In this document: piece after piece, positions 9,727 through 25,413 of the stretch | How positions within the stretch are numbered: position 1 is the stretch's first letter | Layout: each line of letters begins with the position of its first letter | Source of the DNA: Candidatus Aminicenantota bacterium | GTDB lineage: Bacteria; Acidobacteriota; Aminicenantia; UBA2199 | Assembly: GCA_018262835.1 (NCBI GenBank) | Contig: JADFDP010000017.1 | Location: forward strand, 1-39,248 | DNA length: 39,248 nucleotides | Reading direction: 5' to 3' | Program-made: the position numbers and the translations under genes | Notes under the pieces: model-generated | Database searches by the model: none | What the model saw: only the letters and a program-made list of their open reading frames with translations | What the model was told of the DNA's origin: nothing

Positions 9727-10896
9727 ATGGCCGGCGGTGTTGAAAGCAAGGCCCCGGCAAAAGCGAAAGTCGCCCTCATTGAATGTCCCGACTATGATGG
9801 GGAACTTGTTTTTTCGGCCCTGCGCCGGGGGATCGATCTTCTGGGCGGCATCGCCCGTTTTGCCCGCCCGGGCGAGAAAATCCTGCTCAAGCCGAATTTT
9901 CTGACCGGCGCCCCCCCGGAAAAGTGTGTCACCACCCACCCGGCCGTGGTCAAGGCCATGGGTGAGCTTTGCCAGAAAAACGGCGCCCGGGTCAGTTTTG
10001 GCGATTCCCCCGGATTCGGCAGCGCCCGGGGCGCAGCCGCCAAATCCGGCGTGGCGGCAGCGGCCCGGGAGATCGGCATGGAGCCGGCCGATTTCAACAC
10101 CCCGGTCCAGGTCTCGTTCAAGGACGCCCTGATCGCCAAGCAACTGGTCCTGGCCAAAGGCGCCCTGGAAACCGACGGCCTCATCAGCCTGGCCAAGATG
10201 AAGACCCACGGCTTCATGCGCATCACCGGCGCCATAAAGAACCAGTTCGGCTGCGTCCCGGGCATTCGCAAAGGGGAATACCATGTCAAGATGCCGCACA
10301 CCCGACATTTTGCCTCCATGCTGGTCGATATCAACCGCTTTCTAAAGCCGCGCCTGTACGTTTTGGACGGTATCACGGCCATGGAGGGCAACGGCCCGGG
10401 GTCGGGCTCGCCCCGGAAAATGAAGGTCCTGCTGCTTTCAAGCGACCCGGCCGCCCTGGACGCGGTTTTCTGCAGGCTGATCCGCCTGCCGGCCCAGTAC
10501 GTCCCGACCATGGCTCCCGCCGCCGAAAGCGGCCTGGGAGCGATCGCTGACCAAGAGATCGATATCTGCGGCGATTCGCTTTCCCGCCTGGCCTGCCCGG
10601 ATTTTAAAGTGCTCCGCCAGCCGGCGGTGTCTTTTGACCATTCTTTCCCCTTATATCTTAAAAAATGGATTACGCCGCGGCCTTTCATCGATGGCTCTCT
10701 TTGCGAAAACTGCGGGGTCTGCACGGAGGTCTGTCCCCTGGACCCCAAGGCCGTGAAGCGGCGGCCGGGTGACAGAAATCCCCTGCCGGTTTTTGACTAT
10801 GAGCGCTGCATCCGCTGCTATTGCTGCCAGGAGATGTGTCCCTCGGGAGCCATCGCCATCAAACGGCCGTTGTTAAGCCGCATCATCCACCGCTAA
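9727..10896 (+). CDS. DUF362 protein with C-terminal 2[4Fe-4S] ferredoxin domain
   Basis: The 389-residue protein has a DUF362 domain at about 12-300 (GEKILLKPNFLTGAPPEKCV, GALETDGLISLAKMKTHGFM, NQFGCVPG). It is followed by a bacterial ferredoxin domain with two CxxCxxCxxxC motifs, C326/C329/C332/C336 and C361/C364/C367/C371, each ending in CP. The eight cysteines should hold two [4Fe-4S] clusters. DUF362 proteins are widespread in anaerobes and their reaction is largely undefined; an electron-transfer or cofactor-linked role is a guess from the clusters. It is cytoplasmic, with no signal peptide. It starts 3 bases after the lipoprotein gene and ends in a 4-base convergent overlap with the acyl-CoA synthetase gene. 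Confidence 0.88.
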   Translation: MAGGVESKAPAKAKVALIECPDYDGELVFSALRRGIDLLGGIARFARPGEKILLKPNFLTGAPPEKCVTTHPAVVKAMGELCQKNGARVSFGDSPGFGSARGAAAKSGVAAAAREIGMEPADFNTPVQVSFKDALIAKQLVLAKGALETDGLISLAKMKTHGFMRITGAIKNQFGCVPGIRKGEYHVKMPHTRHFASMLVDINRFLKPRLYVLDGITAMEGNGPGSGSPRKMKVLLLSSDPAALDAVFCRLIRLPAQYVPTMAPAAESGLGAIADQEIDICGDSLSRLACPDFKVLRQPAVSFDHSFPLYLKKWITPRPFIDGSLCENCGVCTEVCPLDPKAVKRRPGDRNPLPVFDYERCIRCYCCQEMCPSGAIAIKRPLLSRIIHR

Positions 10897-13598
10897 AGAG
10901 CCGTCACTTGCTGCGGCAGTTCTTTCACCGCATCGATCACCGAGCCGTCGGCCGAGGGAGTGGTGGCAAAACCGAGGCGTTTGAACAACGTCAGCATGCG
11001 CGTGTTGTCGCTGCCGGTCTGGGCGACCACGCGCTTCAAGCCCCAGCGTGAGGCGATATCCAGGCAGCATTCGGTCAGCACGCTTCCCAGGCCCCTGTTC
11101 TGCCACTTGTCACCGACCAGTACCGCGTATTCCACGCTTTCGTGGTCCGGGTCGGCCACCAGCCGCCCCACGCCCAGCAGCTCGCGCCGGCCCTCTGGCG
11201 ACCCTTCCGCCACCATGGCGATCTCCCGGTCATAGTCGGTGAAGCAGTAGCGGATCGCCGCCTGGTGCGATTGCCATTGAAAAAAATGGCGGAAGCGGGC
11301 GTAGATGGATTCCCGCGAACATCCCTTCAGCAGCTCCATCCACAGCGGCTCATCTTCGGGCCGGATCGGCCTGAGCAGCAGTTCGGTCCCGTCCGGCAGG
11401 CGCGCCGTCCGGACGTATTCCTCGGGATAGGGGCGCAGGGCCAGGTGGGCATAGGGCCGCGCTCCGGGTTCGGGCAAGGGGCCCTCGATGACCAGGCGCG
11501 CGTCCAGGGCGAGCGCCTGCTTCGGAGTGACCAGCAGCGGATTGATGTCCAGCTCGGCGATCTCGGGATAATCGGCGGCAAAGTACGAAAAACGGATCAA
11601 AATTTCCAGCAAACTGTCGATACGGACCGGCGGGCGGCCGCGGTAGCCGTTGAGCAGCGGCCAGATCCTGAGCGACTCGAGCATGCGCCGGGCCAGGCGC
11701 TCGTTCAGCGGCGGGAAACCCAGGCTGCGGTCGGCGAACAGCTCGGCATCGGTGCCGCCCATGCCGGCCATGACCACGGTTCCGAAGACCGGGTCCTTTT
11801 TGATGCCCAGGATCATCTCCACCCCATGCGGGTCCTGAACCATGGGCTGGACCGTAACCCCATCCAGCCTGGCCCCGGGTTTCATTTGCCGGGCCCGGTT
11901 CATGATATCTGCAAAAGCCCGGAGCACCATGGATGCGTCCCGCAGGTCCAGGGCCACTCCGCCCACGTCGCTTTTGTGGGTAATGTCCGGGGAAAGGATC
12001 TTCAAGACAACGGGGAACCCGATCCTTTTCGCCACAGCCGCGGCGGCTTCAGCCGTGGCTGCCGTTTGCGGCATGGCGGTCGGAATGCCATAGGCCTCCA
12101 ACAGGGATTTGGAATCGTTTTCCGACAATATTCGCCTTTGGCTGCCGGCCAGCCTTTTGAAATCGGCATGCAGCTTTTTTCGGTCCGGGGCAAAGGTCAG
12201 CGGGATGTCGATGGGGGTTTCGTAGAGGCTGTCCAGGTTGCGGGCGTAGGCCACCAGGGTCATGAAGGCGCCCACCGCCTGTTCCGGCGTGCGGTAGCTG
12301 GCGATGCCGGCATCGGCCAGGATGCGCCGCCCGGCCTGCATGGTGCTCCCGCCCAGCCAGGTTGCCAGGATCGGCTTGGCCGACAGGTCCTTGAGCTGGG
12401 CCAGCGCCTGGGCCATGGCCGTCGGGTTGGTCATGGCCTGCGGGGTGACGATCACCAGGACGGCGTCGGCGCCGGCATCCTGCAGGACGATTTCCACGGC
12501 TCTGGCCAGGCGCTTGGAACGGGCGTCGCCCAGGACATCGACCGGGTTGCCGTGCGACCAGCAGGGCGGCAGGACTTCATCGAGGCGGGTCCGCGTTGCC
12601 GGCTCCAGCCGCGCCAGGGTGCCGCTGGCGGCGATCAAGGCGTCCGTGGCCATTACACCGGGCCCCCCGGCATTGGTCACGATGGCCAGGCGAGGCCCCA
12701 GGGGAATTTTCTGCCGGCCGATCAGCTCGGCGCAGTCGAAAATCTCGCCGATATCCAGGACCCGGGCCAGTCCGGCGCGCTGAAAGGCGGCGTCATAGAT
12801 CGCGTCCTCGGCCGCCAGGGCGCCTGTATGCGAGGCCGCCACCTGGGCCGATTCCGGGAAGCGGCCGGCCTTGTAGGCTACGATGGGCTTGCCGCGGGCG
12901 AAGGCTCGGGCCGCGGTCATGAACTTGCGCGCCTGGCCGATCGATTCCATGTACAGGATGATGGAACGGGTTTTTTCGTCTTCGCCCAGATAGTCGATCA
13001 GGTCGCCGAAATCCACGTCCAGGGCGTTGCCGATCGAGGCCACGCAGGAAAAACCGATATTTTCTTCAATGGCCCAGTCCAGGACCGCGGCGCACAGGGC
13101 GCCGGATTGGGAAATAAAGGCGATGTGCCCGCCTTTGGGCATGGCGCCGGCAAAACTCATGTTCAGCTGCCGGCCGGGGACGATCACGCCCAGGCAGTTC
13201 GGACCGAGGATGCGCATGCCGTCGAATCGCCTGGCCTCGGCCAGGACTTCGTTTTCCAGGACCAGCCCGTTGGGGCCGGTTTCGCGGAAACCGGCCGAAA
13301 CGATGACCACCCCCGGAATGCCCGCTTCCCCGCATTCGCGCACCAGGGCCGGCACTTTTGCGGCCGGCGCGCAGATCACGCCGACATCGACGGGGCGCGG
13401 CAGCTGCCGCAGGCTAGAAAAACAGGGAATGCCCATGACCGCTTCGAAATCGGGGTTGACCGGATAGACGACGCCGCGGAAACCGCTGCCGACCAGGTTT
13501 CCCAGCACCTTGCCGCCGACGCTTTTCGGATTGGCAGTGACCCCGATCAGGGCGATGCGCTGGGGATTGAAAATATGATCAAGCCGGTGAATGGCCAT
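10893..13598 (-). CDS. ADP-forming acyl-CoA synthetase fused to GNAT acetyltransferase
   Basis: The 901-residue protein has the order of Pat/PatZ (YfiQ) proteins: CoA-binding Rossmann domain (about 5-140), succinyl-CoA-synthetase-like domains (about 150-460), ATP-grasp domain (about 480-700, with HKSDVGGVALDL) and a C-terminal GNAT domain (about 735-890, acetyl-CoA loop QNRGLGS). The histidine in the phospho-His region is present at H257 (AASHTGALAAEDAIYDAAF). Protein-acetylating Pat enzymes are reported to have lost the NDP-forming activity, so this one may still interconvert acetyl-CoA + ADP + Pi with acetate + ATP. The GNAT half could acetylate protein lysines. It is the last gene of the corrinoid operon, overlapping the methyltransferase gene by 20 bases, with GGAGAAGG as ribosome-binding site. 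Confidence 0.9.
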   Translation of the reverse strand: MAIHRLDHIFNPQRIALIGVTANPKSVGGKVLGNLVGSGFRGVVYPVNPDFEAVMGIPCFSSLRQLPRPVDVGVICAPAAKVPALVRECGEAGIPGVVIVSAGFRETGPNGLVLENEVLAEARRFDGMRILGPNCLGVIVPGRQLNMSFAGAMPKGGHIAFISQSGALCAAVLDWAIEENIGFSCVASIGNALDVDFGDLIDYLGEDEKTRSIILYMESIGQARKFMTAARAFARGKPIVAYKAGRFPESAQVAASHTGALAAEDAIYDAAFQRAGLARVLDIGEIFDCAELIGRQKIPLGPRLAIVTNAGGPGVMATDALIAASGTLARLEPATRTRLDEVLPPCWSHGNPVDVLGDARSKRLARAVEIVLQDAGADAVLVIVTPQAMTNPTAMAQALAQLKDLSAKPILATWLGGSTMQAGRRILADAGIASYRTPEQAVGAFMTLVAYARNLDSLYETPIDIPLTFAPDRKKLHADFKRLAGSQRRILSENDSKSLLEAYGIPTAMPQTAATAEAAAAVAKRIGFPVVLKILSPDITHKSDVGGVALDLRDASMVLRAFADIMNRARQMKPGARLDGVTVQPMVQDPHGVEMILGIKKDPVFGTVVMAGMGGTDAELFADRSLGFPPLNERLARRMLESLRIWPLLNGYRGRPPVRIDSLLEILIRFSYFAADYPEIAELDINPLLVTPKQALALDARLVIEGPLPEPGARPYAHLALRPYPEEYVRTARLPDGTELLLRPIRPEDEPLWMELLKGCSRESIYARFRHFFQWQSHQAAIRYCFTDYDREIAMVAEGSPEGRRELLGVGRLVADPDHESVEYAVLVGDKWQNRGLGSVLTECCLDIASRWGLKRVVAQTGSDNTRMLTLFKRLGFATTPSADGSVIDAVKELPQQVTAL

Positions 13599-14493
13599 GG
13601 CGTACGACCTTCTCCTCGTCCAGGGCCCGGCGCATGGCGCGGATGTGTTCCGGCGTGGTGCCGCAGCAGCCGCCGATCACCGCCACCCCGGCCCCAACCA
13701 GTTCCCGGCTCATGGCCGCCATGGTTGCCGGGCTCTCGGGATAGTGCACCCGTCCGGCGCGCAATTCCGGCACTCCGGCATTGGCCTGGATCAGCAGCGG
13801 CAGCTTGGTGCATCTCCTGAATTCCTTGGCAATGGCGACCATCTGCAGGCTGCCGTTGCCGCAGTTGGAGCCGACCAGGTCGGCTCCCGCCTTTTCCAGC
13901 TCCCGGCAGGCTTTCTCGATGGTCGCGCCCATGATGGTGAAAAATCCCCGCGCCGTGGCTTCAAAGGTCATGGTGGCCATGACCGGGATGGACGGGGAAA
14001 CGCTGCGCGCCGCCTGGATGGCAAGCCGCGCCTCATGGATATCGGACATGGTCTCGATGCAGATGATGTCGGCCCCGGCCCGGATCAGGGCCTGGATTTG
14101 CCTTTGAAAGCCCTCCAGCATTTTCTCCGGTTCCGTATCCCCGTAGGGCAGCAGGATCTTGCCGCTCGGCCCGCAGGAGGCCGACACATAGGCTTGCTCC
14201 CCGACCGCCCGCCGCACCGCCCGCACGGCGCTTTCATTGATGGCGTCCGCTTGCTCGGCCAGACCGTAATTGGCCAGCTTCAGCGGCGAGGCGCCGAAGG
14301 TGTTGGTCTGGATGATCTCGGCGCCGGCATCCAGGTAGAGGCGGGCGATCTCTTCCAGCATTTCCGGGTGGGAAAGGTTGAGGCTTTCCGGAGCCGCCCC
14401 ACTGGCCAGGCCGCGGGCCATGAGCAGCGAACCGATGGCGCCGTCGGCCAGCAGGACTTCCCCGCGGCCGACCCTGGCCGTGATCGCTTCCAT
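13579..14493 (-). CDS. Homocysteine S-methyltransferase (MetH N-terminal-type module)
   Basis: The 304-residue protein is a stand-alone homocysteine-binding TIM barrel like the first module of MetH. Zinc ligands are visible as C211 (GSNCGNG) and C276/C277 (GGCCGTTPEH). Further family segments are LLADGAIGSLLMARGL, NLSHPEMLEEIARLYLDAGA and IIQTNTFGASPLKLANYGL. It should move a methyl group from a donor to homocysteine, giving methionine. The neighbouring corrinoid protein is the likely donor here, as within MetH, although S-methylmethionine-type donors are possible. Its ATG directly follows the corrinoid gene's TAG, so expression is coupled. No pterin-binding module is present in this gene or this operon. 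Confidence 0.93.
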   Translation of the reverse strand: MEAITARVGRGEVLLADGAIGSLLMARGLASGAAPESLNLSHPEMLEEIARLYLDAGAEIIQTNTFGASPLKLANYGLAEQADAINESAVRAVRRAVGEQAYVSASCGPSGKILLPYGDTEPEKMLEGFQRQIQALIRAGADIICIETMSDIHEARLAIQAARSVSPSIPVMATMTFEATARGFFTIMGATIEKACRELEKAGADLVGSNCGNGSLQMVAIAKEFRRCTKLPLLIQANAGVPELRAGRVHYPESPATMAAMSRELVGAGVAVIGGCCGTTPEHIRAMRRALDEEKVVRHGHSPA

Positions 14494-15135
14494 CTAGCGG
14501 ACTGCCGCGGCCAGTTTTTTTACGCCGGCGACCGCCTGGGCGCAATCGTATCCATAGGCGTCGACGCCGATCTCGTCGGCGTAATTCTGGGAAACCGGGG
14601 CGCCGCCGATGATGGTTTTGATTCGGCCGTTGAGGTTTTCCTTTTTCAACAGGTCCACGACCTCCTTCATCACCGGCATGGTGGTGGTCAGCAGCGCCGA
14701 CATGCCGATGACGCGGGCGTCGTGGCTTTTGGCCGCGGCCACGAATGTTGTAGCGGCTACGTCGTTGCCCAGGTCGATCACCTCGTAACCGGCCCCTTTC
14801 AGCATGATGCCGACCAGGTTCTTGCCGATATCGTGCAGATCGCCCTGCACCGAGCCGATGACCACCCGGCCGCGGCTGGATACGCCGCTGCTGATGAGCA
14901 ATGGTTTGAGCACGTCCATGCCGGCGTACATGGCCTTGGCCGCGAGCAGCACGTCGGGCAAAAAGATCTCGTGGACGCGGAATTTTTCCCCCACCGTGTT
15001 CATGCCCGCGATCAGGCCCTCATCCAGGATGGTTTTGGGGACAGTCCCCTGCTTCAGGGCCTGGCGCACCAAGGGCGGAACGCCGGCATCGTCTCCGGCT
15101 TCCAGGCATTGCGCGATCTGTTTTAAAATCTCCAT
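14494..15135 (-). CDS. Corrinoid (B12-binding) methyl-carrier protein, MttC/MtbC type
   Basis: The 213-residue protein has a helical cap domain (about 1-88, MetH B12-binding type 1) and a Rossmann B12-binding domain (about 90-210). The cobalt-ligand motif DxHxxG is at D99-H101-G104 (GDLHDIGKNLVGIM), so it is base-off/His-on like MetH and methylamine corrinoid proteins. The motifs SALLTTTMPVMKEVV and IGGAPVSQNYADEIGVDAYG are typical of MttC-like proteins. It would carry a methyl group from the MttB-like enzyme to an acceptor methyltransferase. A strong GGAGGA ribosome-binding site precedes the ATG. It lies 15 bases after the activation-domain gene and abuts the homocysteine methyltransferase gene. 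Confidence 0.95.
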   Translation of the reverse strand: MEILKQIAQCLEAGDDAGVPPLVRQALKQGTVPKTILDEGLIAGMNTVGEKFRVHEIFLPDVLLAAKAMYAGMDVLKPLLISSGVSSRGRVVIGSVQGDLHDIGKNLVGIMLKGAGYEVIDLGNDVAATTFVAAAKSHDARVIGMSALLTTTMPVMKEVVDLLKKENLNGRIKTIIGGAPVSQNYADEIGVDAYGYDCAQAVAGVKKLAAAVR

Positions 15136-15150
15136 GGCATTCCTCCGCTT

Positions 15151-15849
15151 TTATGCCGACCGCGCCATTCCTCTTTCCCGGCAGGTCGGACTTTTACACT
15201 GGCCGCAAAATGGATACACTTCCGAAAACCGGTGGATGGCGGCCGGCCCGGCCACCAGCACACCGGAGATCGATTTCAAGGGACTCATCAGGAAGCTGGC
15301 GTTCAGACTGATGCCGATCCGCTCGGGGCGCAGGCGGGCGAACAGTTTTTCCTGGCCGCTGATGTGCCAGCCGCAATAACCGGGACTGTACAGCAAGGCC
15401 TTGAGCCGCGCGCCCTTCTTTTGCCCCGCGTCCCGGCTTTCCACCCATGCTTCAGCGATGCGCCCGGCCTGGTCGGCGGCCAGGGAAGCCACGGCGTCCA
15501 ATACCGAACCCAGGGCAAAATCGTCACTGGCGAACAGACGCTGGATCTCCCCGCTGATCCGGGCTCCCAGGGTGAAGGCGAAAAGGTGCAGGCGTTCGGC
15601 GCGGGGAAAAACTCCCGCCAGGGGCGTGGCCGGGGCATTCCGCCCCTGGCCGGCAAAGATGCCGGCAAACTCGTCCAGGCGGATGGGTTCGCTCACACCC
15701 AGCGGTTCGCTGCAGGAGTGGAACAGCTCCAGCGCCCGCTGCAGCAAAGCGGCCGAGCGAGTCGAAGGCCGGCTGCCGCTGGGCAAGCCCAGAGCGGCAT
15801 ATACGGCCGCTTCCTGGGGCTGCAGGCGCGAAAGCGGAAAATCGATCAT
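15151..15849 (-). CDS. Stand-alone MetH-type reductive activation domain protein
   Basis: The 232-residue protein, taken from the ATG at 15849 whose ATGA overlaps the mttB-like stop, resembles the C-terminal activation domain of cobalamin-dependent methionine synthase. Diagnostic segments are LLYSPGYCGWHISGQEKLF (about 152-170) and RIGISLNASFLMSPLKSISG (about 177-196). In MetH this domain binds SAM and, with a reductant, remethylates oxidised cob(II)alamin. Here it probably repairs the separate corrinoid protein. The C-terminus adds a cysteine cluster at C215, C218 and C223 (FCGQCKSPTC) that could bind metal or an Fe-S cluster; it is not part of the MetH domain as I know it. A longer in-frame start at 15918 lies inside mttB and is unlikely. 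Confidence 0.82.
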   Translation of the reverse strand: MIDFPLSRLQPQEAAVYAALGLPSGSRPSTRSAALLQRALELFHSCSEPLGVSEPIRLDEFAGIFAGQGRNAPATPLAGVFPRAERLHLFAFTLGARISGEIQRLFASDDFALGSVLDAVASLAADQAGRIAEAWVESRDAGQKKGARLKALLYSPGYCGWHISGQEKLFARLRPERIGISLNASFLMSPLKSISGVLVAGPAAIHRFSEVYPFCGQCKSPTCRERGMARSA

Positions 15850-17318
15850 GCTGTGACCGGGCGGACCGGGAGCTTTTCCATGCCCCAGCGCCGCGCTTCC
15901 GCTTCCATCAGCCGGCACAATTCCTTTTTTCGCTCGCCCGCCAGCCGGGAAGGAACATAGGCGCCGATCAGCCGCTCCACCTCCTGGTGGGCCCGCTGTC
16001 CCAGGGTCAGGCTTCCCTCTTCGCGCCAGCGGGAGAGATTGGCGCGGTCAATGACCCGGCCCGGGAAATAATGCTCCTTTTTCAAATGGCGGCGGGTGTG
16101 CGGGGAGATCAGCAGGTGCCCGTCGCGCAAAAGCTCCTCGAAAATCGGCAGGGCCGGGAAGTCTTCCCTGGGCTCGATGCCCTGCACCAGGCGCAGGGTC
16201 ATGCCGCAGATCTCATTGTCCAGGACCAGTTTTTCCAGGCTCTGGCAGCTTTCGAAATCGAGCATGCCGGGACCGGAGATGCTGTTAATCCCGGAAAGGG
16301 CGGCCAGGGTGGCCCCCATGGCGGTTTCCAGCCCGGCCTGGGCGTCGAGCAGCTTGGCGTCGCTCAAGGAGATGTAGGCCTGGGTGGGCAGGCCGAAGTG
16401 CTTGCCGATTTCGTTATAGGCGCAATCAACCATCTGGGTCTCCACCGCGCCCATGGGCGTGGTCTCGTAGCGCATGTCGAACGCGGCCGGCGAGCCGCCA
16501 TAGAGGACCGGCGCGCCGGGGCGGTTGACCTGGCTGATGACGATGCCGCTGAGCGTTTCGGCCGTATGCTGCACCAGGGTTCCCACCAGGGTGACCGGGG
16601 CCATGAAGCCGGAGAGAGGCATGGAAATGAATTCCACCGGGATGCCGGCCGCCCCGCAGTCGATCACGTTCTGCGAGGTGATCTCGCTCCACTTCAGGGG
16701 CGAGGTCGGGCAGCAGGAAAAAACAGTCAGCGGTTTTTCGCGTAATTCCTTTTCACCGCCGCGCACGGCCAGCTGCATGTCCCTCATCACCCGGAAGGAT
16801 TCGATGGTGAAGGTGCCGGTAACCACGGGTTTCTCGCCGTAGAGCAGGCTCAGGAAAAGCCGGTAGCTGTCGGAGAAGCGGTCGGCCACGTCGGCCGGGA
16901 TGAAGGCCGTGCTTTGCGAAGCGATATGGGACAGGCCGGACAGCAGCTGCGTGTAGCGGACATAGTCGGCGGTATCGGGCTTGCGGATCTGCTGGGTCTG
17001 GTAGTCCAGGACATGCAGGGCGGCCGAACCGGGGGTGAAATGGACCTTGTGCCCAGAGAAATCGTGGGTCTCGTTGCCCAGGACATCAAAAAGCTTGAAT
17101 GAATGCGGGACCGAGGCCAGCGCCCGGTCCAGCAATGCGGGAGTGTACAGGACCTGGTTTTTTTCAAAATCGACCTTGGCGCCGTGATCGGCCAGGAGCT
17201 TCAGGACGCGGGGATTCTGCACCTGGGTCCCCAATCGGCAAAGTAGGTCACGGGCTTCGCTCACTATGCGCGCCAGCAGTTCATCGCCCAACAGTCTCAG
17301 CTGCGGTCTCAAGGCCAT
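15846..17318 (-). CDS. MttB-family corrinoid-dependent amine methyltransferase
   Basis: The 490-residue protein belongs to the trimethylamine methyltransferase (MttB) superfamily. Family segments include FTPGSAALHVLDYQT, FSCCPTSPLKWSEITSQNVI, FISMPLSGFMAPVTLVGTL, GAPVLYGGSPAAFDMRYETT and DAKLLDAQAGLETAMG. There is no in-frame amber codon, so this is a pyrrolysine-free member, the group that demethylates quaternary amines (glycine betaine MtgB, proline betaine MtpB, carnitine MtcB are known examples). The substrate cannot be read from the sequence. It should pass a methyl group to the adjacent corrinoid protein. It is first in its operon, with AGGAGGCGAAACC before the ATG and a perfect-consensus promoter upstream. 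Its stop overlaps the activation-domain gene (ATGA). Confidence 0.93.
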   Translation of the reverse strand: MALRPQLRLLGDELLARIVSEARDLLCRLGTQVQNPRVLKLLADHGAKVDFEKNQVLYTPALLDRALASVPHSFKLFDVLGNETHDFSGHKVHFTPGSAALHVLDYQTQQIRKPDTADYVRYTQLLSGLSHIASQSTAFIPADVADRFSDSYRLFLSLLYGEKPVVTGTFTIESFRVMRDMQLAVRGGEKELREKPLTVFSCCPTSPLKWSEITSQNVIDCGAAGIPVEFISMPLSGFMAPVTLVGTLVQHTAETLSGIVISQVNRPGAPVLYGGSPAAFDMRYETTPMGAVETQMVDCAYNEIGKHFGLPTQAYISLSDAKLLDAQAGLETAMGATLAALSGINSISGPGMLDFESCQSLEKLVLDNEICGMTLRLVQGIEPREDFPALPIFEELLRDGHLLISPHTRRHLKKEHYFPGRVIDRANLSRWREEGSLTLGQRAHQEVERLIGAYVPSRLAGERKKELCRLMEAEARRWGMEKLPVRPVTA

Positions 17319-17526: not shown

Positions 17527-18894
17527 ATGAGCACAAATACTGAAAGACCGGTTGCGCGGCACAGATTGAATGTGCTGGTCGTCGACGATGAAACGAATAT
17601 CCGCAAGACCATTTCCCTCTGCCTCGAGATCGAAGGCTGCCAGGTGCGGGCGGTCAGCAACTTCGCTGATGCCGTGAACGAGATCAAACAGGGGGTTTTC
17701 GACGTGGCCTTTCTGGACCTGCGCCTGGGGACCAAGAATGGTCTGGATCTGATCCCCTATCTGCAGTTCCATTCGCCGCGGGCCAAGATCGTCATCATCA
17801 CCGCCTACGCATCCATCGACTCGGCCATCGAGGCCATCCGCAAGGGGGCCACGGACTACATCCCCAAGCCATTTACGCCGGCCCAGATCAAGATGGTTAT
17901 CGACAAGATCCTCGAGATCGGGGATATGCAGAGGCAGATCGAGTATCTCAAATCCAGTTTGACGGCCAGCATGCCGGAGATCGATTTTTCCACAAAAAGC
18001 ACCGCCATGCAAAAAGTTTTTTCCGTCGCTCGTGAGGCCGCCTCCTCCAGCGCCAATATTCTGCTCAAGGGGGAAAGCGGCAGCGGAAAAAGTGTTTTGG
18101 CCAAAGCCATTCACGATTGGAGCCCCAGGGCGGGCAAGCCTTTCCTGAGCGTCTCCTGCCCTTCCCTGTCCGTCGAGCTGCTGGAAAGCGAGCTTTTCGG
18201 CCATGCCAGGGGTTCATTCACCGGCGCGCTCAAGGACTTCCCCGGGCGGATCTCGCTGGCCCAGCAGGGCACGCTGTTCCTGGATGAGATCGGCGACCTG
18301 CCCCTGGCGATCCAGCCCAAGCTCCTGCGCTTCATCCAGGAAAAAAAATATGAGCGGGTCGGGGAAAATATAACCCGCAATGCGGATGTGCGGCTCATCG
18401 CCGCTTCCAACCTCGATCTGGGCCAGGCCGTCGCCCAAGGGAGGTTCAGGGAAGACCTGTATTACCGCCTGAACGTGGTAGAGATCGAAATGCCGCCGCT
18501 GCGGGACCGGAAGGAAGATATAGCGACCATCGCCGGCACCATGCTGCAGTTCTTCGGGCGTAGCAATCACCGGGCCTACAAGGGATTCACCATGGAGGCC
18601 CTGGAAGCGCTTACGAATTATCCCTGGCCAGGAAACCTCCGTGAACTGCGCAACGCCATAGAGCGCATCGCCATATTCTGCAGAACGGAAACGGTCGGCA
18701 GGGAATGCCTTCCCGATAAGATCTGCACCAGCGAAGAAGCGCCGCGTCTGGGCGACGCGGTCGAACTCGAAAAGATCGAGGAGGCCCATATTCGCCGCAT
18801 TCTGGCCTCCGCGTCATCCATGGAGCAGGCGGCGGAAACCCTCGGCATCAATACGGCCACCCTGTGGCGCAAAAGAAAAAAATACGGCATTTGA
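17527..18894 (+). CDS. NtrC-family sigma-54 response regulator, likely kdp activator
   Basis: The 455-residue protein has a receiver domain (about 14-125; D20/D21 pocket, phospho-acceptor D64 in VAFLDLRLG, lysine in YIPKPF). An AAA+ sigma-54 interaction domain follows (about 150-390) with Walker A GESGSGKS (182-189), Walker B TLFLDEIGDLPL and the sigma-54 contact loop GSFTGA (229-234, a Ser variant of GAFTGA). A Fis-type helix-turn-helix lies at about 414-455 (MEQAAETLGINTATLWRKRK). When phosphorylated it should drive open-complex formation at sigma-54 promoters. The next gene is a histidine kinase, followed by the whole kdp operon and preceded by a sigma-54 promoter match at 19018-19033. Kdp control is therefore the likely role, though inferred from context. 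Confidence 0.93.
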   Translation: MSTNTERPVARHRLNVLVVDDETNIRKTISLCLEIEGCQVRAVSNFADAVNEIKQGVFDVAFLDLRLGTKNGLDLIPYLQFHSPRAKIVIITAYASIDSAIEAIRKGATDYIPKPFTPAQIKMVIDKILEIGDMQRQIEYLKSSLTASMPEIDFSTKSTAMQKVFSVAREAASSSANILLKGESGSGKSVLAKAIHDWSPRAGKPFLSVSCPSLSVELLESELFGHARGSFTGALKDFPGRISLAQQGTLFLDEIGDLPLAIQPKLLRFIQEKKYERVGENITRNADVRLIAASNLDLGQAVAQGRFREDLYYRLNVVEIEMPPLRDRKEDIATIAGTMLQFFGRSNHRAYKGFTMEALEALTNYPWPGNLRELRNAIERIAIFCRTETVGRECLPDKICTSEEAPRLGDAVELEKIEEAHIRRILASASSMEQAAETLGINTATLWRKRKKYGI

Positions 18895-18922
18895 TCCCTG
18901 GCGCGGCAATCCAACCGCCGCT

Positions 18923-18955
18923 GCAAAATGCAAGGCCCGGCGCCGCATGGTTTGC
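18923..18955. promoter_or_regulatory. Imperfect inverted repeat, possible activator site
   Basis: GCAAAATGC (18923-18931) and GCATGGTTTGC (18945-18955) form an imperfect dyad about 65-95 bases upstream of the sigma-54 -24 element. That is a usual distance for enhancer-binding proteins. It is a candidate site for the regulator encoded just before it; no second copy was confirmed. Confidence 0.3.
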
Positions 18956-19017
18956 AAATTTCAATACCCTGCCGGAGAATCCGCATCAAAAAACCTGTCC
19001 ATAGGCCGTCACGGTTT

Positions 19018-19033
19018 TGGCAGGGTTCATGCA
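19018..19033 (+). promoter_or_regulatory. Sigma-54 (-24/-12) promoter of the histidine kinase-kdp operon
   Basis: TGGCAGGGTTCATGCA matches TGGCACGRNNNTTGCW at all but two constrained positions. It keeps the essential GG (19019-19020) and GC (19031-19032) exactly 10 bases apart. Transcription would start near 19044, about 10 bases before the kinase ATG at 19054. A sigma-54 activator is encoded immediately upstream. Confidence 0.55.
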
Positions 19034-19053
19034 TACTGTTTCACGGTGCAGGA

Positions 19054-20889
19054 ATGAAATTTACCATTCGACAAAAAATTTTAGTCGTTTTTGCCATGAT
19101 GCTGTTGATCACCTCCCTGATTTCACTGCAGAGCATCCGGCGCTTCAACCAACTGGGAAGGTCCATCGATGTGATATTGAGGGAAAACTATCGCAGCGTC
19201 ATCGCCTGCCAGCAGATGAAGGATGCCCTGGAACGAATGGACAGCGGGCTGCTTTTCATCCTCTCGGGCTTCATGAAGGAAGGCGCCGCTCAGATCGAAG
19301 TCAACCGGGGCCGTTTCAAAGAGGCCCTGCAAACGGAATTGAACAACCTGACCCTGCCCGAGGAATCCGCCCGGGCCACAGAATTGAAATCGCTCTTCCA
19401 ACTCTATGACCAGGGTCTCGATGAGTTCTTGCTATCCCAGCCGCAAATTCTGCGGCAACTCTATTTTAAAAATCTCTTTCCGCTTTTCAATGATGTCAGG
19501 GACAAGGCGGAGTCCATCCTGCAAATGAATCAGGAGAACATGAACGCCGCCAACAACCGGGCCCGGACCAAGGCCGCCGCGGCCCGGCGCGACATGTATT
19601 TTTTCCTGGGCCTTTCCGTCGGCATCGCCCTGCTTTTCATGCTGTTCAGCAACCATTGGATCCTGAGGCCCATCCGCCGCCTCATCGATTCCACCCAGGA
19701 GATCCGCAAGGGGAACCTGAACCTTGAGATCCAGGTGGATGCGCGGGATGAGATCGGCCAGCTTTCCGAAGCCTTCAATGCCATGGTGGCCAGCCTGCGA
19801 CTTTTCCGCCGTTCCGACCAGGCAAAGCTCGTGCGGGTCCAACGTTCCACGCAGGAGGCGTTCAAGAACCTGCCGGCAGCCATCGCCATCGTCAACACCG
19901 ATAACGTGATCGAGATCGCCACCGCCGCGGCCCGCCGCAATTTCAAGCTGGTTCCCAATACTTCGATCGAGCAGACCCCCTATCCCTGGCTGGCGGAAAT
20001 CCAGCGCAGCCTCGTGAAGAATCCCACCGCGGCCGGCAGTGAAAAAAAATATGAGATCATCCAGCAGTTCAGCGATAACCAGGAAAGGTTTTTCAGACCG
20101 CGGGTGATTCCCATTTTCAATGATGAAAGGGAGTTTAACGGCTCGATCATTATCCTGGAGGATGTCACCTTGCTGATGCAGAACGATGAGATCAAGAAGG
20201 ACCTGTTTTCCACGATCTCCCATCAATTGAAAACGCCGCTGACCTCCATCCGCATGGCGCTGCACCTCCTGCTCGAGGAAAATGTCGGCAGCCTGAACGA
20301 AAAGCAGGCCGACCTGCTGGTTTCCGCGCGCGATGAAAGCGACAGGTTGAACGGCATCATCGAAGACCTCCTCGATATCCGGCGTCTGGAGTCGGGAAAC
20401 GTCAGCTTGAGCCTGGCCACGGTTTCGCCATACCCGCTGGTGCAGGAAGCGGCCGACTCATTTTCCCGCCAGGCCCAGGACAAGGGCATCCGCCTGGAAA
20501 TCGATCTGCCCGCCGATCTGCCCGATGTATGCGCCGACCGCTCCCGCATCCTGTACGTATTCGCCAACCTGCTGTCCAATGCCATTAAATATTCCCCGGT
20601 CGGCGGCGTGGTGCGGCTGTCGGCAAAGCTGGAGGGAGATCGGATCCTGTTTTCCGTCACGGACAACGGACGCGGCATTCCCAGGAAATACCAGAAACGG
20701 ATCTTCGAGAAATTTTTCAGGGTACCGGGACGGAATGCGGAGGGCGGAGTCGGATTGGGCCTGAGCATCGCCAAAGAGATAGTCACGGCGCATCATGGCC
20801 AGATCACCTTCAACAGCGTCGAAGACCGGGGCGCTACGTTCTCCTTCAGCCTGGACCCGCAGGACGGTTTGCCTAAAGGAGGTTCATAA
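19054..20889 (+). CDS. Membrane histidine kinase with HAMP and PAS, kdp-linked
   Basis: From the ATG at 19054 the protein has 611 residues. A first membrane helix (about 8-24) and a second (about 181-199) flank a helical periplasmic sensor domain of the four-helix-bundle type. HAMP (about 203-255, WILRPIRRLIDSTQEIRKGN), a PAS-like domain (about 263-373), HisKA with phospho-His near 390 (FSTISHQLKTPLTSIRMAL) and HATPase (NLLSNAIKYSP, VTDNGRGIP, GVGLGLSIAK) follow. An in-frame extension to 18928 would cross the sigma-54 promoter and is rejected. It probably phosphorylates the preceding NtrC-type regulator. The TAA stop overlaps the next ATG (TAATG), locking it to the kdp genes. The sensed signal is unknown; potassium limitation or turgor is the natural guess. 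Confidence 0.9.
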   Translation: MKFTIRQKILVVFAMMLLITSLISLQSIRRFNQLGRSIDVILRENYRSVIACQQMKDALERMDSGLLFILSGFMKEGAAQIEVNRGRFKEALQTELNNLTLPEESARATELKSLFQLYDQGLDEFLLSQPQILRQLYFKNLFPLFNDVRDKAESILQMNQENMNAANNRARTKAAAARRDMYFFLGLSVGIALLFMLFSNHWILRPIRRLIDSTQEIRKGNLNLEIQVDARDEIGQLSEAFNAMVASLRLFRRSDQAKLVRVQRSTQEAFKNLPAAIAIVNTDNVIEIATAAARRNFKLVPNTSIEQTPYPWLAEIQRSLVKNPTAAGSEKKYEIIQQFSDNQERFFRPRVIPIFNDEREFNGSIIILEDVTLLMQNDEIKKDLFSTISHQLKTPLTSIRMALHLLLEENVGSLNEKQADLLVSARDESDRLNGIIEDLLDIRRLESGNVSLSLATVSPYPLVQEAADSFSRQAQDKGIRLEIDLPADLPDVCADRSRILYVFANLLSNAIKYSPVGGVVRLSAKLEGDRILFSVTDNGRGIPRKYQKRIFEKFFRVPGRNAEGGVGLGLSIAKEIVTAHHGQITFNSVEDRGATFSFSLDPQDGLPKGGS

Positions 20890-20978
20890 TGCTGGATCTG
20901 TTCTATGTTATTTTAACGGCGGGATTCTTATGCCTTTGTTTGCGTTTGGGAAACTTCCTGGAGGAGGTTGCAAAATAA
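20889..20978 (+). CDS. 29-residue membrane microprotein upstream of kdpF
   Basis: An ATG at 20889, overlapping the kinase stop as TAATG, opens a 29-codon frame beginning MLDLFYVILTAGFLCLCLRL and ending in NFLEEVAK. It is one hydrophobic helix with a charged tail. AAAGGAGG stands just upstream (about 20877-20883) and the stop overlaps the kdpF start, again as TAATG. Spacing and ribosome-binding site argue that it is translated. Short single-helix frames of similar length and style (hydrophobic start, arginine/acidic end) occur before kdpF in other bacteria, as I recall. It may be an accessory Kdp subunit. The function is not known. Confidence 0.7.
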   Translation: MLDLFYVILTAGFLCLCLRLGNFLEEVAK

Positions 20979-21058
20979 TGGAAATGATCACCGCTATTGT
21001 CGCCCTGGCATTGGTCGGCTACCTGTTCATCTCGATATTCAAACCGGAGAAATTTTAA
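20978..21058 (+). CDS. kdpF: KdpF, small subunit of the potassium-transporting ATPase
   Basis: The 26-residue peptide MEMITAIVALALVGYLFISI plus FKPEKF is one transmembrane helix with the KdpF pattern, including the LVGYLF core and the C-terminal basic KPEKF. KdpF stabilises the KdpFABC complex in the inner membrane. GGAGGAGG lies upstream inside the microprotein gene. The start overlaps the preceding stop (TAATG), and kdpA begins at the base right after the kdpF stop. Confidence 0.92.
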   Translation: MEMITAIVALALVGYLFISIFKPEKF

Positions 21059-22786
21059 ATGGAAATCGGGAGTTGGCTGCAACTTCTTTTATTCATTGGT
21101 TTGCTCTTTCTGCTGACACGCCCCTTCGGCTCTTACCTGTACAAAGTCATGGAGACAAAAGAAAAAACGATTTTTTCGCCTGTCTTGGGCGGTTGCGAAA
21201 AATTACTGTTCAAAGCCCTGGGCAGGGACGTTGAAAAAGAACAAAGCTGGAAGCAGTACGGAATAGCGCTCGCCTTTTTCAGCCTGGCCGGCATGCTTCT
21301 GACTTATTTCGTTTTGCGCCTGCAGCATATCCTGCCCTTGAATCCCCAGCATTTTGCCGCAGTGGAACCATCCCTGGCCTTCAACACCGCAGCCAGCTTC
21401 GCTGCCAACACCAATTGGCAGAATTATGCCGGAGAAAGTACGATGTCGCATTTCTCGCAAATGGTGGGACTGACTTTCCAGAATTTCGTTTCGGCCGCCG
21501 TCGGCATCGCCGTGGCCGCCGCCCTGGTGCGGGGGATCGCCAGGAAAAGCGTCCGTACGATCGGCAATTTCTGGGCCGACCTGATCCGCGTTACCCTGCA
21601 TGTGCTTTTACCCTTGTCCATCATGCTGGCTATTTTTTTCATCTCCCAGGGCGTCATCCAGAATTTCTCAGCAGATGTCAAGGCGGCCTGCCTGGAAAAA
21701 CCAGCCGGCCGGGAGCCGGCACAATTCATTCCCCAGGGGCCCGTGGCTTCACAGGAGGCGATCAAGATACTGGGCACCAATGGCGGCGGTTTTTTCAACG
21801 CCAATTCCTCCCACCCTTTCGAAAACCCAACCCCTTTGACCAACTTTATCCAGCTGCTGGCCATTTTTCTGATCCCCTCCGCCCTGACCCGCTATCTGGG
21901 CTTGATGGTCGGTAACAAAAAGCACGGATGGGCGGTATGGAGCGCCATGGCCGTTCTTTTTCTGGCCAGCCTGATGGTCTGCTGGACGGCCGAAGGCAAA
22001 GGCAATTCCCGCTATCCGGTCCTGTCTGCGTCCAGCGGCGGCAATATGGAAGGCAAGGAAACGCGTTTCGGCATCTTCAACTCAGCTCTGTACGCCACGG
22101 TCACGACCTCTGCTTCCTGCGGAGCCGTCAACTCCATGCATGATTCCTTCACGCCCCTGGGGGGCCTGATGCCCCTGCTCAACATCCAGCTCGGCGAAGT
22201 GGTGTACGGGGGGGTAGGATCGGGCCTTTCCGGCATGCTGATTTTTGTCATCCTGGCCGTATTCATCGCCGGGTTGATGGTCGGCCGCACTCCGGAATAC
22301 CTCGGCAAGAAAATCGAGTCGGCCGATATCAAACTCTGCGTATTTTATATTCTGGCTTCTGCGATTTTGATTCTCGCTCCGGCCGCTTGGGCGGCAGCCA
22401 GCCGCTGGGGGGTTGCCGGCATAAGCAACCATGGCCCGCATGGATTGAGCGAGATGCTGTACGCTTTTTCTTCAGCTGCCGGGAACAACGGCAGCGCTTT
22501 TGCGGGTTTGTCGGCCAACACCCCGGCCTACAATACCCTTCTCGGCCTGGTCATGCTGGCCGGCCGTTTTTTGCTCATGGTCCCGGTCCTGGCCCTGGCC
22601 GGGAACCTGGCCGCAAAGAAAGTGATCCCTGCGGGCAGCGGCAGCTTTCCGGTCCACGGCATGACTTTCATCGTGCTGCTTGTCGGCACGATCATTATCG
22701 TCGGCTTGCTGACATTTTTCCCTGCCCTTTCACTCGGGCCGGTTGTCGAGCATTTCATCATGACCGGCTCCGGCAAACTGTTTTAG
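21059..22786 (+). CDS. kdpA: KdpA, potassium-channel-like subunit of Kdp ATPase
   Basis: The 575-residue inner-membrane protein is the potassium-binding and -translocating subunit of KdpFABC. The four selectivity-filter regions are visible: NTNWQNYAGE (about 117-126), LGTNGGGFFNANS (238-250), TTSASCGAVNSMHDSF (349-364) and AAGNNGSAFAGL (473-484). The glycines of the second filter (GTNGGG) are intact. About ten hydrophobic helices are evident. Length agrees with the family (about 560-580). It begins directly after the kdpF stop and is followed 12 bases later by kdpB. Confidence 0.98.
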   Translation: MEIGSWLQLLLFIGLLFLLTRPFGSYLYKVMETKEKTIFSPVLGGCEKLLFKALGRDVEKEQSWKQYGIALAFFSLAGMLLTYFVLRLQHILPLNPQHFAAVEPSLAFNTAASFAANTNWQNYAGESTMSHFSQMVGLTFQNFVSAAVGIAVAAALVRGIARKSVRTIGNFWADLIRVTLHVLLPLSIMLAIFFISQGVIQNFSADVKAACLEKPAGREPAQFIPQGPVASQEAIKILGTNGGGFFNANSSHPFENPTPLTNFIQLLAIFLIPSALTRYLGLMVGNKKHGWAVWSAMAVLFLASLMVCWTAEGKGNSRYPVLSASSGGNMEGKETRFGIFNSALYATVTTSASCGAVNSMHDSFTPLGGLMPLLNIQLGEVVYGGVGSGLSGMLIFVILAVFIAGLMVGRTPEYLGKKIESADIKLCVFYILASAILILAPAAWAAASRWGVAGISNHGPHGLSEMLYAFSSAAGNNGSAFAGLSANTPAYNTLLGLVMLAGRFLLMVPVLALAGNLAAKKVIPAGSGSFPVHGMTFIVLLVGTIIIVGLLTFFPALSLGPVVEHFIMTGSGKLF

Positions 22787-22798
22787 GAGGCCTCCCCG

Positions 22799-24820
22799 AT
22801 GAGAACCGCCGCGACTTCCATTTTTCAAAAAGACATCCTGAAGCAGGCCGTCATGGATGCGGTAAAAAAACTCGATCCCCGCTCGCTGGCCAGGAACCCG
22901 GTCATGTTCGTCACCGAGTGCTGCGCCCTGCTCACCACGGCCGCCCTATTTCAAAAAAGCAGCGGCGAACCGAGGGGATTCATCATTCAGATTTCACTCT
23001 GGCTGTGGTTCACCGTTCTTTTCGCCAACTTCGCCGAGGCCGTAGCCGAAGGCCGCGGCAAGGCCCAGGCCGATTCCCTGCGCAAAACCAGGTCCCATAC
23101 CACGGCCAATCGAATGCAGCCGGGCCAAGAGAACGCTCCGGTGCCGGCGGAAGCCTTGCGCAAAAACGACATCGTGGCGGTCAGCGCCGGCGAGACCGTC
23201 CCGGCCGATGGCGAGGTGATCTCAGGCATCGCCACCGTCGACGAATCGGCGATCACCGGGGAATCGGCACCGGTCATCCGCGAATCCGGAGGCGACCGCA
23301 GTGCCGTGACCGGCGGTACCAAAGTGCTTTCCGACAAAATCATCGTCCGCGTCACGGCCAATCCCGGTGAAAGTTTTCTGGACCGCATGATCAGCCTGGT
23401 GGAAGGCGCCAACCGGCAAAAGACGCCGAACGAGATCGCACTGACCATCCTGCTGTCCGCGCTCAGCGTCATTTTCCTGGTGGCGATCTTCACCTTGAAA
23501 TTTTTCGGGATCTACTCCGGTGCATGGTTCAGTATCACCGTACTGGTGTCGCTTTTGGTCTGTCTCCTGCCGACGACCATCGGCGGGCTGCTGAGCGCCA
23601 TCGGCATTGCCGGCATCGACCGTCTGGTGCAGAAAAACGTTCTGGCCATGAGCGGCCGGGCGGTGGAGGCGGCCGGGGATATCGACGTGCTTTTACTGGA
23701 CAAGACCGGCACCATCACCCTGGGCGACCGGCAAGCAGTACGCTTTATCCCGGCCCCGGGAATCACGGTGGGGACCCTGGCTGACATCGCCCAGCTGGCT
23801 TCCCTGTCCGATGAAACCCCGGAAGGCCGCAGTATCGTCATCCTGGCAAAAAAACACGGCTTGCGCGGCCGCTCGATCGCGGAGATTCCCGATGCCCGAT
23901 TCGTCTCCTTTTCGGCGCAGACCCGCATGAGCGGCATCGACATCGGCCTGCATCAATTTCGCAAGGGCGCGCCCGACGCCATCGCGGCATTCGCCGCGAT
24001 CGAGTTCCCGCAGGAGATGAAGCGGGTCATCGAGGAGATCTCCAGGGAAGGAGGTACGGCGCTGGCCGTAGCGGAGAAGGAGGAGGCGCTGGGCGTCATT
24101 CATCTCAAGGATATCGTCAAGGGGGGGCTCAGGGACCGCTTCATCCGGCTGAGGGCCATGGGCATCAAGACCATCATGATCACCGGGGACAACCGTCTTA
24201 CCGCGGCCACGATCGCCCGGGAGGCGGGAGTGGACGATTTCCTGGCCGAAGCCCGCCCGGAAGACAAAATGGCGCTGATCCGCAAGGAGCAAAGGAACGG
24301 CTACCTGGTGGCCATGACCGGCGACGGCACCAACGATGCACCGGCGCTGGCGCAGGCGGACGTGGGCGTGGCCATGAACACGGGCACCCAGGCGGCAAAA
24401 GAGGCGGGCAATATGGTTGACCTGGATTCCAACCCGACCAAGCTCATTGAAATCATAGAGACCGGAAAACAGATGTTGATGACGCGCGGCGCTCTGACCA
24501 CCTTCAGCATCGCCAACGACGTCGCGAAATATTTCGCCATCCTTCCGGCCATGCTCATTGTCCTTTTCCCGGAAATCGCCCCGCTGAACATCATGAAGCT
24601 TGGATCGCCCCTCAGCGCCATTCTCAGCGCCGTGGTCTTCAACGCCATGATCATCATCCTGCTCATTCCCCTGGCCCTCAAGGGCGTAAAATTCAAACCC
24701 ATGAAAGCCATGGCCCTGCTGCGGCGCAACCTGGTAATTTACGGACTGGGCGGTTTGGCCATTCCTTTTGCCGGCATCAAAATCATCGATATCGTGGTCA
24801 ATTTTTTCCATCTGACCTGA
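22799..24820 (+). CDS. kdpB: KdpB, P-type ATPase subunit of Kdp
   Basis: The 673-residue protein is the catalytic subunit that hydrolyses ATP to drive potassium uptake. P-type hallmarks are the phosphorylated aspartate D301 in [10 protein letters not shown], the actuator motif TGES (153-156) including the serine phosphorylated for inhibition in E. coli KdpB, the membrane segment [14 protein letters not shown] (256-269), and the hinge motif [20 protein letters not shown]. Length is normal. An AGGAGG ribosome-binding site precedes the ATG. It lies in the middle of the contiguous kdp operon. Confidence 0.98.
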
Positions 24821-24831
24821 GGAGATAAAAA

Positions 24832-25413
24832 ATGAAAGCTTTGGCGGGTGAAATAAAAAGAGCAGCATGGGCCGTCATCCTGCTGACCATTTTATTGTGC
24901 GGGATCTATCCGCTAGCAATTTGGGGCATCGGGCAATTGCTTTTTTCGGAAAAAGCCAACGGGTCCATCTTGGTAAGGGAAAAAGGAATCGTGGGCTCCG
25001 TCCTGATCGCCCAGCGATTCACCTCGCCCGCTTATTTCCATTCCCGCCCCTCGGCCGTCGCCTACGCCAGTTCCGCAGCTGATTCGGGCGGCAGCAACCT
25101 GGGCCCCCTGTCAAAATTGCTCCACGATCAGCTAATGGCCCGGATAAATAACTATCGCAGGGAAAACGGGCTGGCAGCCTCTTTCCCGATCGCTGCGGAT
25201 GCGGTCAGCGCTTCCGCCAGCGGTTTGGATCCCCATATCAGTCCTGCCAACGCCTTCTCCCAGGCGGCCCGGGTCGCCGGGGCCCGGGGGCTGAGCCGGG
25301 ACCAGGTCATGAGCATGATCCGGCTCCACTTGGAAGAAAGGCAGCTGGGTATCTTCGGTGAAAAAAGGGTCAACGTGCTGTTATTGAACCTGGCCCTTGA
25401 CGGCCATGAATGA
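24832..25413 (+). CDS. kdpC: KdpC, accessory subunit of Kdp ATPase
   Basis: The 193-residue protein has one N-terminal membrane helix (about 12-36, WAVILLTILLCGIYPLAIW) and a KdpC periplasmic domain. Family segments are GSVLIAQRFTSPAYFHSRPS, SGGSNLGPLSKLL, DAVSASASGLDPHISPANA and QAARVAGARGLS. It stabilises the KdpFABC complex. GAGGAGAT precedes the start. Its stop overlaps the KdpD-like gene (ATGA), so the sensor protein is translationally coupled to the transporter. Confidence 0.97.
   Translation: MKALAGEIKRAAWAVILLTILLCGIYPLAIWGIGQLLFSEKANGSILVREKGIVGSVLIAQRFTSPAYFHSRPSAVAYASSAADSGGSNLGPLSKLLHDQLMARINNYRRENGLAASFPIAADAVSASASGLDPHISPANAFSQAARVAGARGLSRDQVMSMIRLHLEERQLGIFGEKRVNVLLLNLALDGHE

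Follow-up and report, generated by a model that had tools for sequence, protein, structure and literature searches.

A conserved four-gene unit in Candidatus Aminicenantota that may link a methylated amine to methionine synthesis without folate

We analyzed a stretch of 39,248 nucleotides (nt; hereafter the window) from a Candidatus Aminicenantota bacterium (assembly GCA_018262835.1, contig JADFDP010000017.1, positions 1 to 39,248 of the forward strand), and in it a single run of four minus-strand genes, from 17318 to 13579, that overlap or nearly abut. They encode an MttB-family methyltransferase (MttB), a MetH-type activation protein (Act), a corrinoid methyl-carrier protein (MttC), and a homocysteine S-methyltransferase (HMT). 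An original prediction, made from the DNA sequence alone, had named four consecutive, overlapping or abutting genes of these kinds; all four were found at that place, and Pfam confirmed their families.

15846..17318, minus strand: MttB, MttB-family methyltransferase without pyrrolysine, 490 amino acids (PF06253); proposed methylated-amine:corrinoid methyltransferase
15151..15852, minus strand: Act, stand-alone MetH-type activation protein, 233 amino acids from the ATG at 15852 (PF02965); proposed SAM-dependent reductive reactivator (SAM, S-adenosylmethionine)
14494..15135, minus strand: MttC, corrinoid (B12) methyl-carrier protein, 213 amino acids, with a DxHxxG motif (PF02607 and PF02310)
13579..14493, minus strand: HMT, homocysteine S-methyltransferase, 304 amino acids, with zinc cysteines intact (PF02574)

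The open reading frame (ORF) listed for Act begins with a GTG at 15918; the likely start is the ATG at 15852, which gives a 7-nt overlap with MttB. The spacing is 15 nt between Act and MttC and 0 nt between MttC and HMT.

Conservation of the unit was analyzed with MttB as the sole bait, keeping the best 80 of at least 548 confirmed relatives (66 to 89% MttB identity), 12 of which were loci of host-family genomes. MttB, MttC, and HMT were encoded together on one strand at 52 of the 80 loci (10 in the host family and 42 outside it). The exact order of the window, MttB-Act-MttC-HMT, for which the original prediction had suggested a search in other genomes, was present at 47 of these loci; Act-MttB-MttC-HMT occurred at three and MttB-MttC-HMT at two. 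Among loci with at least 2.6 kb of sequence downstream, 45 of 57 had the three genes together, and 16 loci without HMT were on contigs that end within 2.6 kb. Outside the host family, the three-gene set spans about ten phyla as titled in the records. By those titles alone, full sets came from Acidobacteria, WOR-3/Stahlbacteria/TA06, Cloacimonadota, Eisenbacteria, Aegiribacteria/Fermentibacteria, Phycisphaerae, Zixiibacteriota, Neomarinimicrobiota, Bacteroidetes, Deltaproteobacteria, and Hatepunaea; the KSB1 (L087) and Gemmatimonadetes (L144) loci were without HMT. No pterin protein was detected beside MttB at any of the 80 loci (three queries, tblastn, E 1e-5). When 771 ORFs from 72 loci were clustered, only the four genes were broadly recurrent, and every other cluster was confined to nine loci or fewer. 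The arrangement is more than chance, because the order persists in lineages well beyond the host family, and MttB, MttC, and HMT, accompanied by an activator of the MetH type and by no pterin gene, are a real and widespread conserved unit. Distance matrices of the four proteins were correlated (r 0.68 to 0.85 for the 30 loci passing length limits; none of 999 shuffles was as high), which establishes common descent of the unit but not what it does.

MttB matched Pfam MTTB (PF06253) with 251 bits, and its nearest NCBIfam model was that of pyrrolysine (Pyl) MttB (355 bits, under the cut-off). Its AlphaFold model (pLDDT 83.7, with weak stretches at residues ~236-239, 279-287, and 382-388) was closest among solved folds to the MttB structure 7xcl (TM-score 0.89) and the MtgB structure 9yce (TM-score 0.88). 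As the original prediction had held, the protein is pyrrolysine-free: Pyl334 of M. barkeri MttB aligns with a TTG codon (Leu318), and the gene has no in-frame UAG. A pyrrolysine MttB was rejected on this ground despite a match to the Rfam family PYLIS_3 at 16268-16367 (minus strand), just past the Leu318 codon; similar matches occur at 10 of 25 other loci. In the absence of an in-frame UAG, the match was read as coding similarity, which suggests that PYLIS_3 picks up the coding sequence of mttB and not pyrrolysine insertion.

The glycine-betaine ligands of Desulfitobacterium hafniense MtgB, as predicted by docking, are Y94, N199, R309, and H345 (PMC6855144). The corresponding residues of the window MttB are S98, C203, Q313, and S348, according to a by-eye reading of a HMMER alignment whose numbering is off by one and which has a gap near H345. 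These were retained in 71, 72, 72, and 71, respectively, of 72 sequences. Because the four betaine ligands are not conserved in the window MttB, glycine betaine is a possible donor that is not favored; the ligands are themselves predictions, and their absence lowers the likelihood of betaine without excluding it. Met249 of the Pyl-MttB pocket (PMC9842639) is retained as M233. MttB is also the most conserved subunit, with a mean distance of 0.29 compared with 0.36 for MttC, 0.39 for HMT, and 0.54 for Act (26 loci outside the family). E. limosum MtcB and MtyB, which are 53% identical, are described as specialized for different substrates, although MtyB accepts both (PMC8604678); MttB orthologs with at least 66% identity probably share one substrate. 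In the more distant relatives that we call class-level, described below, the Q313 position is His in nine of nine sequences, hinting at a different substrate there. Separately, the MttB of one genus member (G013; L045, 2820-4098) matches in two pieces only, residues 1-63 and residues 127-490; the middle is absent, and this copy may be broken or misassembled.

The remaining three proteins have counterparts among the modules of MetH. MttC matched the Pfam domains B12-binding_2 (77 bits) and B12-binding (98 bits); its nearest NCBIfam models were MtgC (213 bits) and pyl_corrinoid (201 bits), both under the cut-off, followed by MetH (134 bits). D99, H101, and G104 were invariant in a 20-row alignment. 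HMT matched S-methyl_trans (PF02574) with 230 bits; its nearest NCBIfam models, both under the cut-off, were PRK08645 (286 bits) and then the betaine-homocysteine model PRK07534 (217 bits), and its best solved relative was 1q7m, a 5-methyltetrahydrofolate S-homocysteine methyltransferase. Residues C211, C276, and C277, which we take to be the zinc ligands, were invariant in a 22-row alignment. So was Gly67, which may occupy the position of the betaine-cage Tyr of human betaine-homocysteine methyltransferase (BHMT).

Act matched Met_synt_B12 (PF02965) with 27.8 bits (cut-off 25) over its C-terminal part only, and no NCBIfam model. All 20 aligned Act homologs matched PF02965. The AlphaFold model (pLDDT 89.6) had as its best solved match 1j6r, the TM0269 activation domain (TM-scores 0.72/0.84), and it also matched the MetH activation domains 1msk and 6bm5. 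Four cysteines were conserved in a 58-row alignment that includes some misframed or cut ORFs: C160 within GYCGW (55 rows), C216 (55), C219 (54), and C224 (55). The activation domain of the host MetH has none of the four, and TM0269 has Gly at the first position. The C-terminal cysteine motif was considered as a unique feature of Act and rejected, since it is shared by class-level loci L048, L055, and L060 and by a clostridial stand-alone activator; it is absent in L050, and L060 also has the GYCGW cysteine, as GYCDW. The Act cysteines may hold a metal cluster or center that passes electrons to cobalt.

From these assignments a route can be proposed in which MttB would transfer a methyl group from a methylated amine to MttC, and HMT would move it from MttC to zinc-bound homocysteine, yielding methionine. 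Whenever the cobalt became oxidized to Co(II), Act would use SAM to methylate it reductively and so return it to activity, with electrons perhaps supplied through a metal centre on its conserved cysteines. The net reaction would be like that of BHMT (amine methyl to homocysteine), carried out with MetH chemistry. For this MttB-MttC-HMT route, each catalytic step is inferred, as are the amine, the direction, and which partners belong together; the gene set is read most directly as passing methyl groups from an amine on to homocysteine, because an MttB, a corrinoid protein, an HMT, and a MetH-type activator form a conserved unit that has no pterin gene. We judge it modestly probable that the four genes constitute a dispersed, folate-independent, B12-dependent methionine synthase fed by a methylated amine. 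Thus, the conserved unit, with its activator and without a pterin gene, bears out one part of the folate-independent route originally predicted; the amine donor is putative, and the pairing of MttB with HMT is not fixed everywhere.

A number of observations, given in this and the following paragraphs, weigh against such a synthase. At the level of the proteins, Leu154 of the window Act lies at the position of what we take to be the SAM-binding Arg of MetH activation domains (motif RxxxGY), and the 58 rows have Arg in 22 cases and Leu in 12. Clustering of neighboring genes in the four-gene clade gave no recurrent transporter pointing to a substrate, and no SAM or cobalamin riboswitch scored above threshold in the window or in 25 loci. 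At 12 of the 57 loci with room downstream, HMT was not beside MttB (L077, L087, L101, L107, L126, L128, L132, L136, L137, L138, L140, and L145). Other PF02574 loci were read for seven genomes without HMT beside MttB, and for L107. In one of these genomes, MttB stands alone and Act-MttC-HMT are together elsewhere (L160), which by contrast favors the synthase; in another, MttC-HMT adjoins an MTHFR and a pterin-like match (L161); in the others checked, HMT was by itself.

Co-occurrence was examined in 60 relatives, 34 of which belong to the host family. MttB orthologs were present in 21 of the 34 family genomes, and an HMT ortholog (at least 57% identity) was found in 19 of these 21, compared with none of the 13 MttB-negative genomes, a co-occurrence that favors the amine-fed synthase. 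The contiguous four-gene order was seen in 14 of the 21 MttB-positive genomes, and three loci were cut by contig ends (G018, G021, and G030). Further points on the unfavorable side come from two groups of genomes. Four family genomes (G019, G025, G031, and G033) have the window-type MttB with Act only, with no MttC or HMT adjacent, and have HMT near a TAG-containing MttB on another contig. In three further genomes (G035, G038, and G043), HMT adjoins a stand-alone pterin protein, away from MttB. At two of the TAG-containing loci (L062, 5997-11452, in G031 and L063, 3948-8555, in G033), the MttB adjoins a Dimeth_Pyl-like dimethylamine methyltransferase (PF09505, 468 bits for the L062 copy), one or more corrinoid proteins, and a window-type HMT (62 to 63% identity). 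Because a pyrrolysine-type MttB and a PF09505 protein adjoin a window-type HMT at these two loci, methylamines may feed methionine there.

The host assembly (G000; 2.73 Mb, 160 contigs, 81% complete) encodes one MttB and two PF02574 proteins. One of the latter is a MetH, a 1084-amino-acid frame on contig C1 that is open at the contig end and has homocysteine, pterin, both B12, and activation modules. The idea that the operon stands in place of MetH was consequently dropped for the host, where methionine supply need not be the role of the operon. No MetE-type match was found in this 81% complete assembly and, despite the four-module MetH, no MTHFR (PF02219) match either. Contig C7 encodes a 283-amino-acid stand-alone Pterin_bind protein (39 bits), and a third PF00809 match is folP-like (282 bits). 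The originally predicted absence of a pterin protein is therefore correct for the operon and not for the genome. The C7 protein could draw methyl groups to folate, which also counts against a folate-independent role.

That protein bears on a model in which, as in the MtgBCDE system discussed below, the corrinoid protein is a shared hub: a pterin methyltransferase encoded elsewhere would send the amine methyl group mainly to folate, and HMT would use either source. We regard this model as rather unlikely. It would explain why HMT adjoins a stand-alone pterin protein in G035, G038, and G043, why MttC-HMT adjoins MTHFR and a pterin-like match in G095, and why HMT is found with a different MttB in four family genomes. 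Against it, C7-type pterin proteins are present in 20 of the 21 MttB-positive and 11 of the 13 MttB-negative family genomes; because they occur in so many genomes without MttB, they do not track the operon and are independent of it. In addition, the three queries found no pterin gene beside MttB at the 80 loci, the only PF00809 match is folP-like by score in G060, G061, G063, G065, G068, G069, G076, G078, G080, and G083, and no MTHFR match was found in G000, G061, G063, and G083. The same C7 protein, with three of the four MetH modules in the operon, would also fit a conventional methionine synthase that is split into separate proteins and receives its methyl groups from methyl-folate, with MttB as a passenger that has a separate role. 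This appears very improbable, since MttB comes first in the operon and is the best conserved of the subunits (0.29 versus 0.39 for HMT and 0.36 for MttC), the HMT ortholog is absent in the family wherever MttB is absent, and the host already has a folate-type MetH.

The class-level relatives comprise 14 genomes (loci L046-L059; 45 to 51% MttB identity). MttC was near MttB at all 14 loci, HMT at six, a RACo-type activator family at 10 (five with HMT), an amino-acid permease family at seven, and an Act-like protein at three; the members checked with Pfam were two RACo, three permease, and two Act-like proteins, one of the Act-like proteins scoring under the cut-off. Because permease and RACo families recur near class-level MttB-MttC, they hint that the substrate there may be an imported amino-acid-like compound. 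None of the 14 genomes had a MetE match, and in six (G036, G053, G055, G056, G058, and G059) the HMT beside MttB was the only full-length PF02574 protein, with one extra fragment of 71 amino acids in G053; this, like the recurrence of the RACo family, favors the amine-fed synthase. These six also have stand-alone pterin proteins, three of which adjoin an MTHFR-like match, so that the same corrinoid protein might serve a folate route in them; this belongs among the points against an amine-fed, folate-independent synthase.

Other phyla were represented by 32 genomes (G060-G091). Twenty of these have a MetH-like PF00809 frame no shorter than 500 amino acids, and eight have a PF01717 match. Together, 27 of the 32 have a MetH-like or MetE-like gene, so that methionine supply need not be the role of the operon there either. 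As to the check suggested with the original prediction, whether metE and metH are absent alongside the operon, most of the unit-bearing genomes tested additionally hold a MetH-like or MetE-like gene. Neither type was found in five genomes (G061, G063, G077, G080, and G083). One of these, G083 (WOR-3, a single contig with no MetE, MTHFR, or MetH-like frame), was considered as a case in which the unit is the sole synthase and was given less weight because of two further partial PF02574 matches (L155 and L156). The full set was incomplete at the locus in four genomes, L107 and L132 being without HMT and L094 and L133 without Act. A frame of ~310 amino acids with a weaker PF02574 match was also seen in G074 and G087.

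Such redundancy, with 27 of 32 genomes already equipped with MetH- or MetE-like genes, would fit an acceptor other than homocysteine. PF02574 enzymes vary in their acceptor, and the HMT-like protein might methylate another thiol or a selenol, the operon serving to dispose of or salvage methyl groups. Corrinoid clusters for sulfur or selenium methyl compounds, proposed elsewhere (PMC10418091), offer a precedent. We nevertheless consider this alternative improbable, since the closest solved and NCBIfam relatives of HMT are of the methionine-synthase type and since the six class-level genomes, in which no MetE was found, have no full-length PF02574 protein other than its counterpart.

Returning to the amine-fed methionine synthase, a broader version would be a self-contained, horizontally spread, folate-free enzyme set whose dedicated, SAM-dependent Act may carry a metal cluster on its four conserved cysteines and which uses one shared amine in about ten mostly uncultured phyla. 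We put this forward tentatively, as a possibility somewhat short of probable. If the synthase is real, it would add a methionine route beside folate-fed MetH and MetE, BHMT, and the MetE-type core synthases, and, in uncultured phyla, it would connect the demethylation of amines directly with the SAM cycle. With dozens of orthologs available in a fixed order, the function can be tested. That MttB is so highly conserved suggests a common substrate, the identity of which would reveal a shared methylated metabolite.

The genes flanking the unit were also inspected.

10893-13598: ADP-forming acyl-CoA synthetase/GNAT fusion gene, overlapping HMT by 20 nt

This gene was considered as a fifth conserved member and rejected: it follows HMT in two genus relatives (L032 and L044) and not in seven others read past HMT. 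Divergent from MttB (window 17527-27065) are genes for a sigma-54-type response regulator, a histidine kinase, KdpA, KdpB, and a KdpD sensor-domain protein in which a PTS_EIIA_2 domain is present and the kinase part absent. The histidine kinase/response regulator pair also adjoins the operon in L032, L033, and L045. Sigma-54-like patterns matched 188 times, compared with 186 expected by chance.

Several known systems resemble the unit in part. The homocysteine, B12, and activation modules of MetH belong to the same families as HMT, MttC, and Act, but they are joined in one chain with a pterin module, whereas the window unit consists of separate chains, has no pterin module, and adds MttB. BHMT has the same kind of net reaction as proposed here, yet it is a single enzyme without B12, and the window HMT has Gly67 at what is presumably the position of the human betaine-cage Tyr. 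MtgB-MtgC-MtgA of D. hafniense likewise pairs a non-pyrrolysine MttB with a cognate corrinoid protein; there the acceptor is folate, via MtgA, the MttB proteins are 27 to 28% identical by structure alignment, and the predicted betaine ligands differ. Separate activation proteins are known from Peptoclostridium (L172) and T. maritima (TM0269). The clostridial one, like Act, ends in CxxCx5C, but it is encoded between metF and a three-module MetH (793 amino acids; HMT, pterin, and B12 modules) and does not have the GYCGW cysteine, a further conserved residue of the Act family. The core methionine synthases MesA-D are also folate-independent, with a methyl-corrinoid protein as the proposed donor for MesA-C; their catalytic domain is of the MetE type, in contrast to the PF02574 type of the window HMT (PMC7857596).

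The closest likeness is to MtgBCDE of Ruegeria pomeroyi and Phaeobacter inhibens, published in 2025 (PMC12478193). That paper shows by genetics that, in Ruegeria, MtgC and MtgD act in the demethylation of glycine betaine as well as in the synthesis of methionine, with MtgE as the homocysteine module; an MttB-family donor enzyme, a separate corrinoid protein, and a separate HMT thus link amine demethylation to methionine, as proposed here. The systems differ in that MtgBCDE has an essential pterin subunit, MtgD, with none found beside MttB at our 80 loci, and in that RamA and DUF1638 proteins provide reactivation there, compared with a MetH-type activator in the window; the term "activation domain" is absent from the main text of the paper. 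Among the best 12 plasmid records (rhizobia and roseobacters), which are not the published Mtg proteins themselves, MttB was 26.8 to 29.3% identical to the window protein, and HMT was ~35 to 40% identical to alphaproteobacterial records among its best 12 plasmid matches. A literature search at the level of titles and abstract openings, covering few subscription journals, found no description of the four-gene combination apart from PMC12478193. The statement of the original prediction that this exact combination was not known from the literature must accordingly be narrowed: a system linking an enzyme of the MttB family to a corrinoid protein and an HMT has been published, and it is the pterin-free unit with a MetH-type activator that was not found described in the sources covered. 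MtgBCDE is the nearest precedent, and the four-gene unit is a variant of the kind of system published in 2025 rather than a new category.

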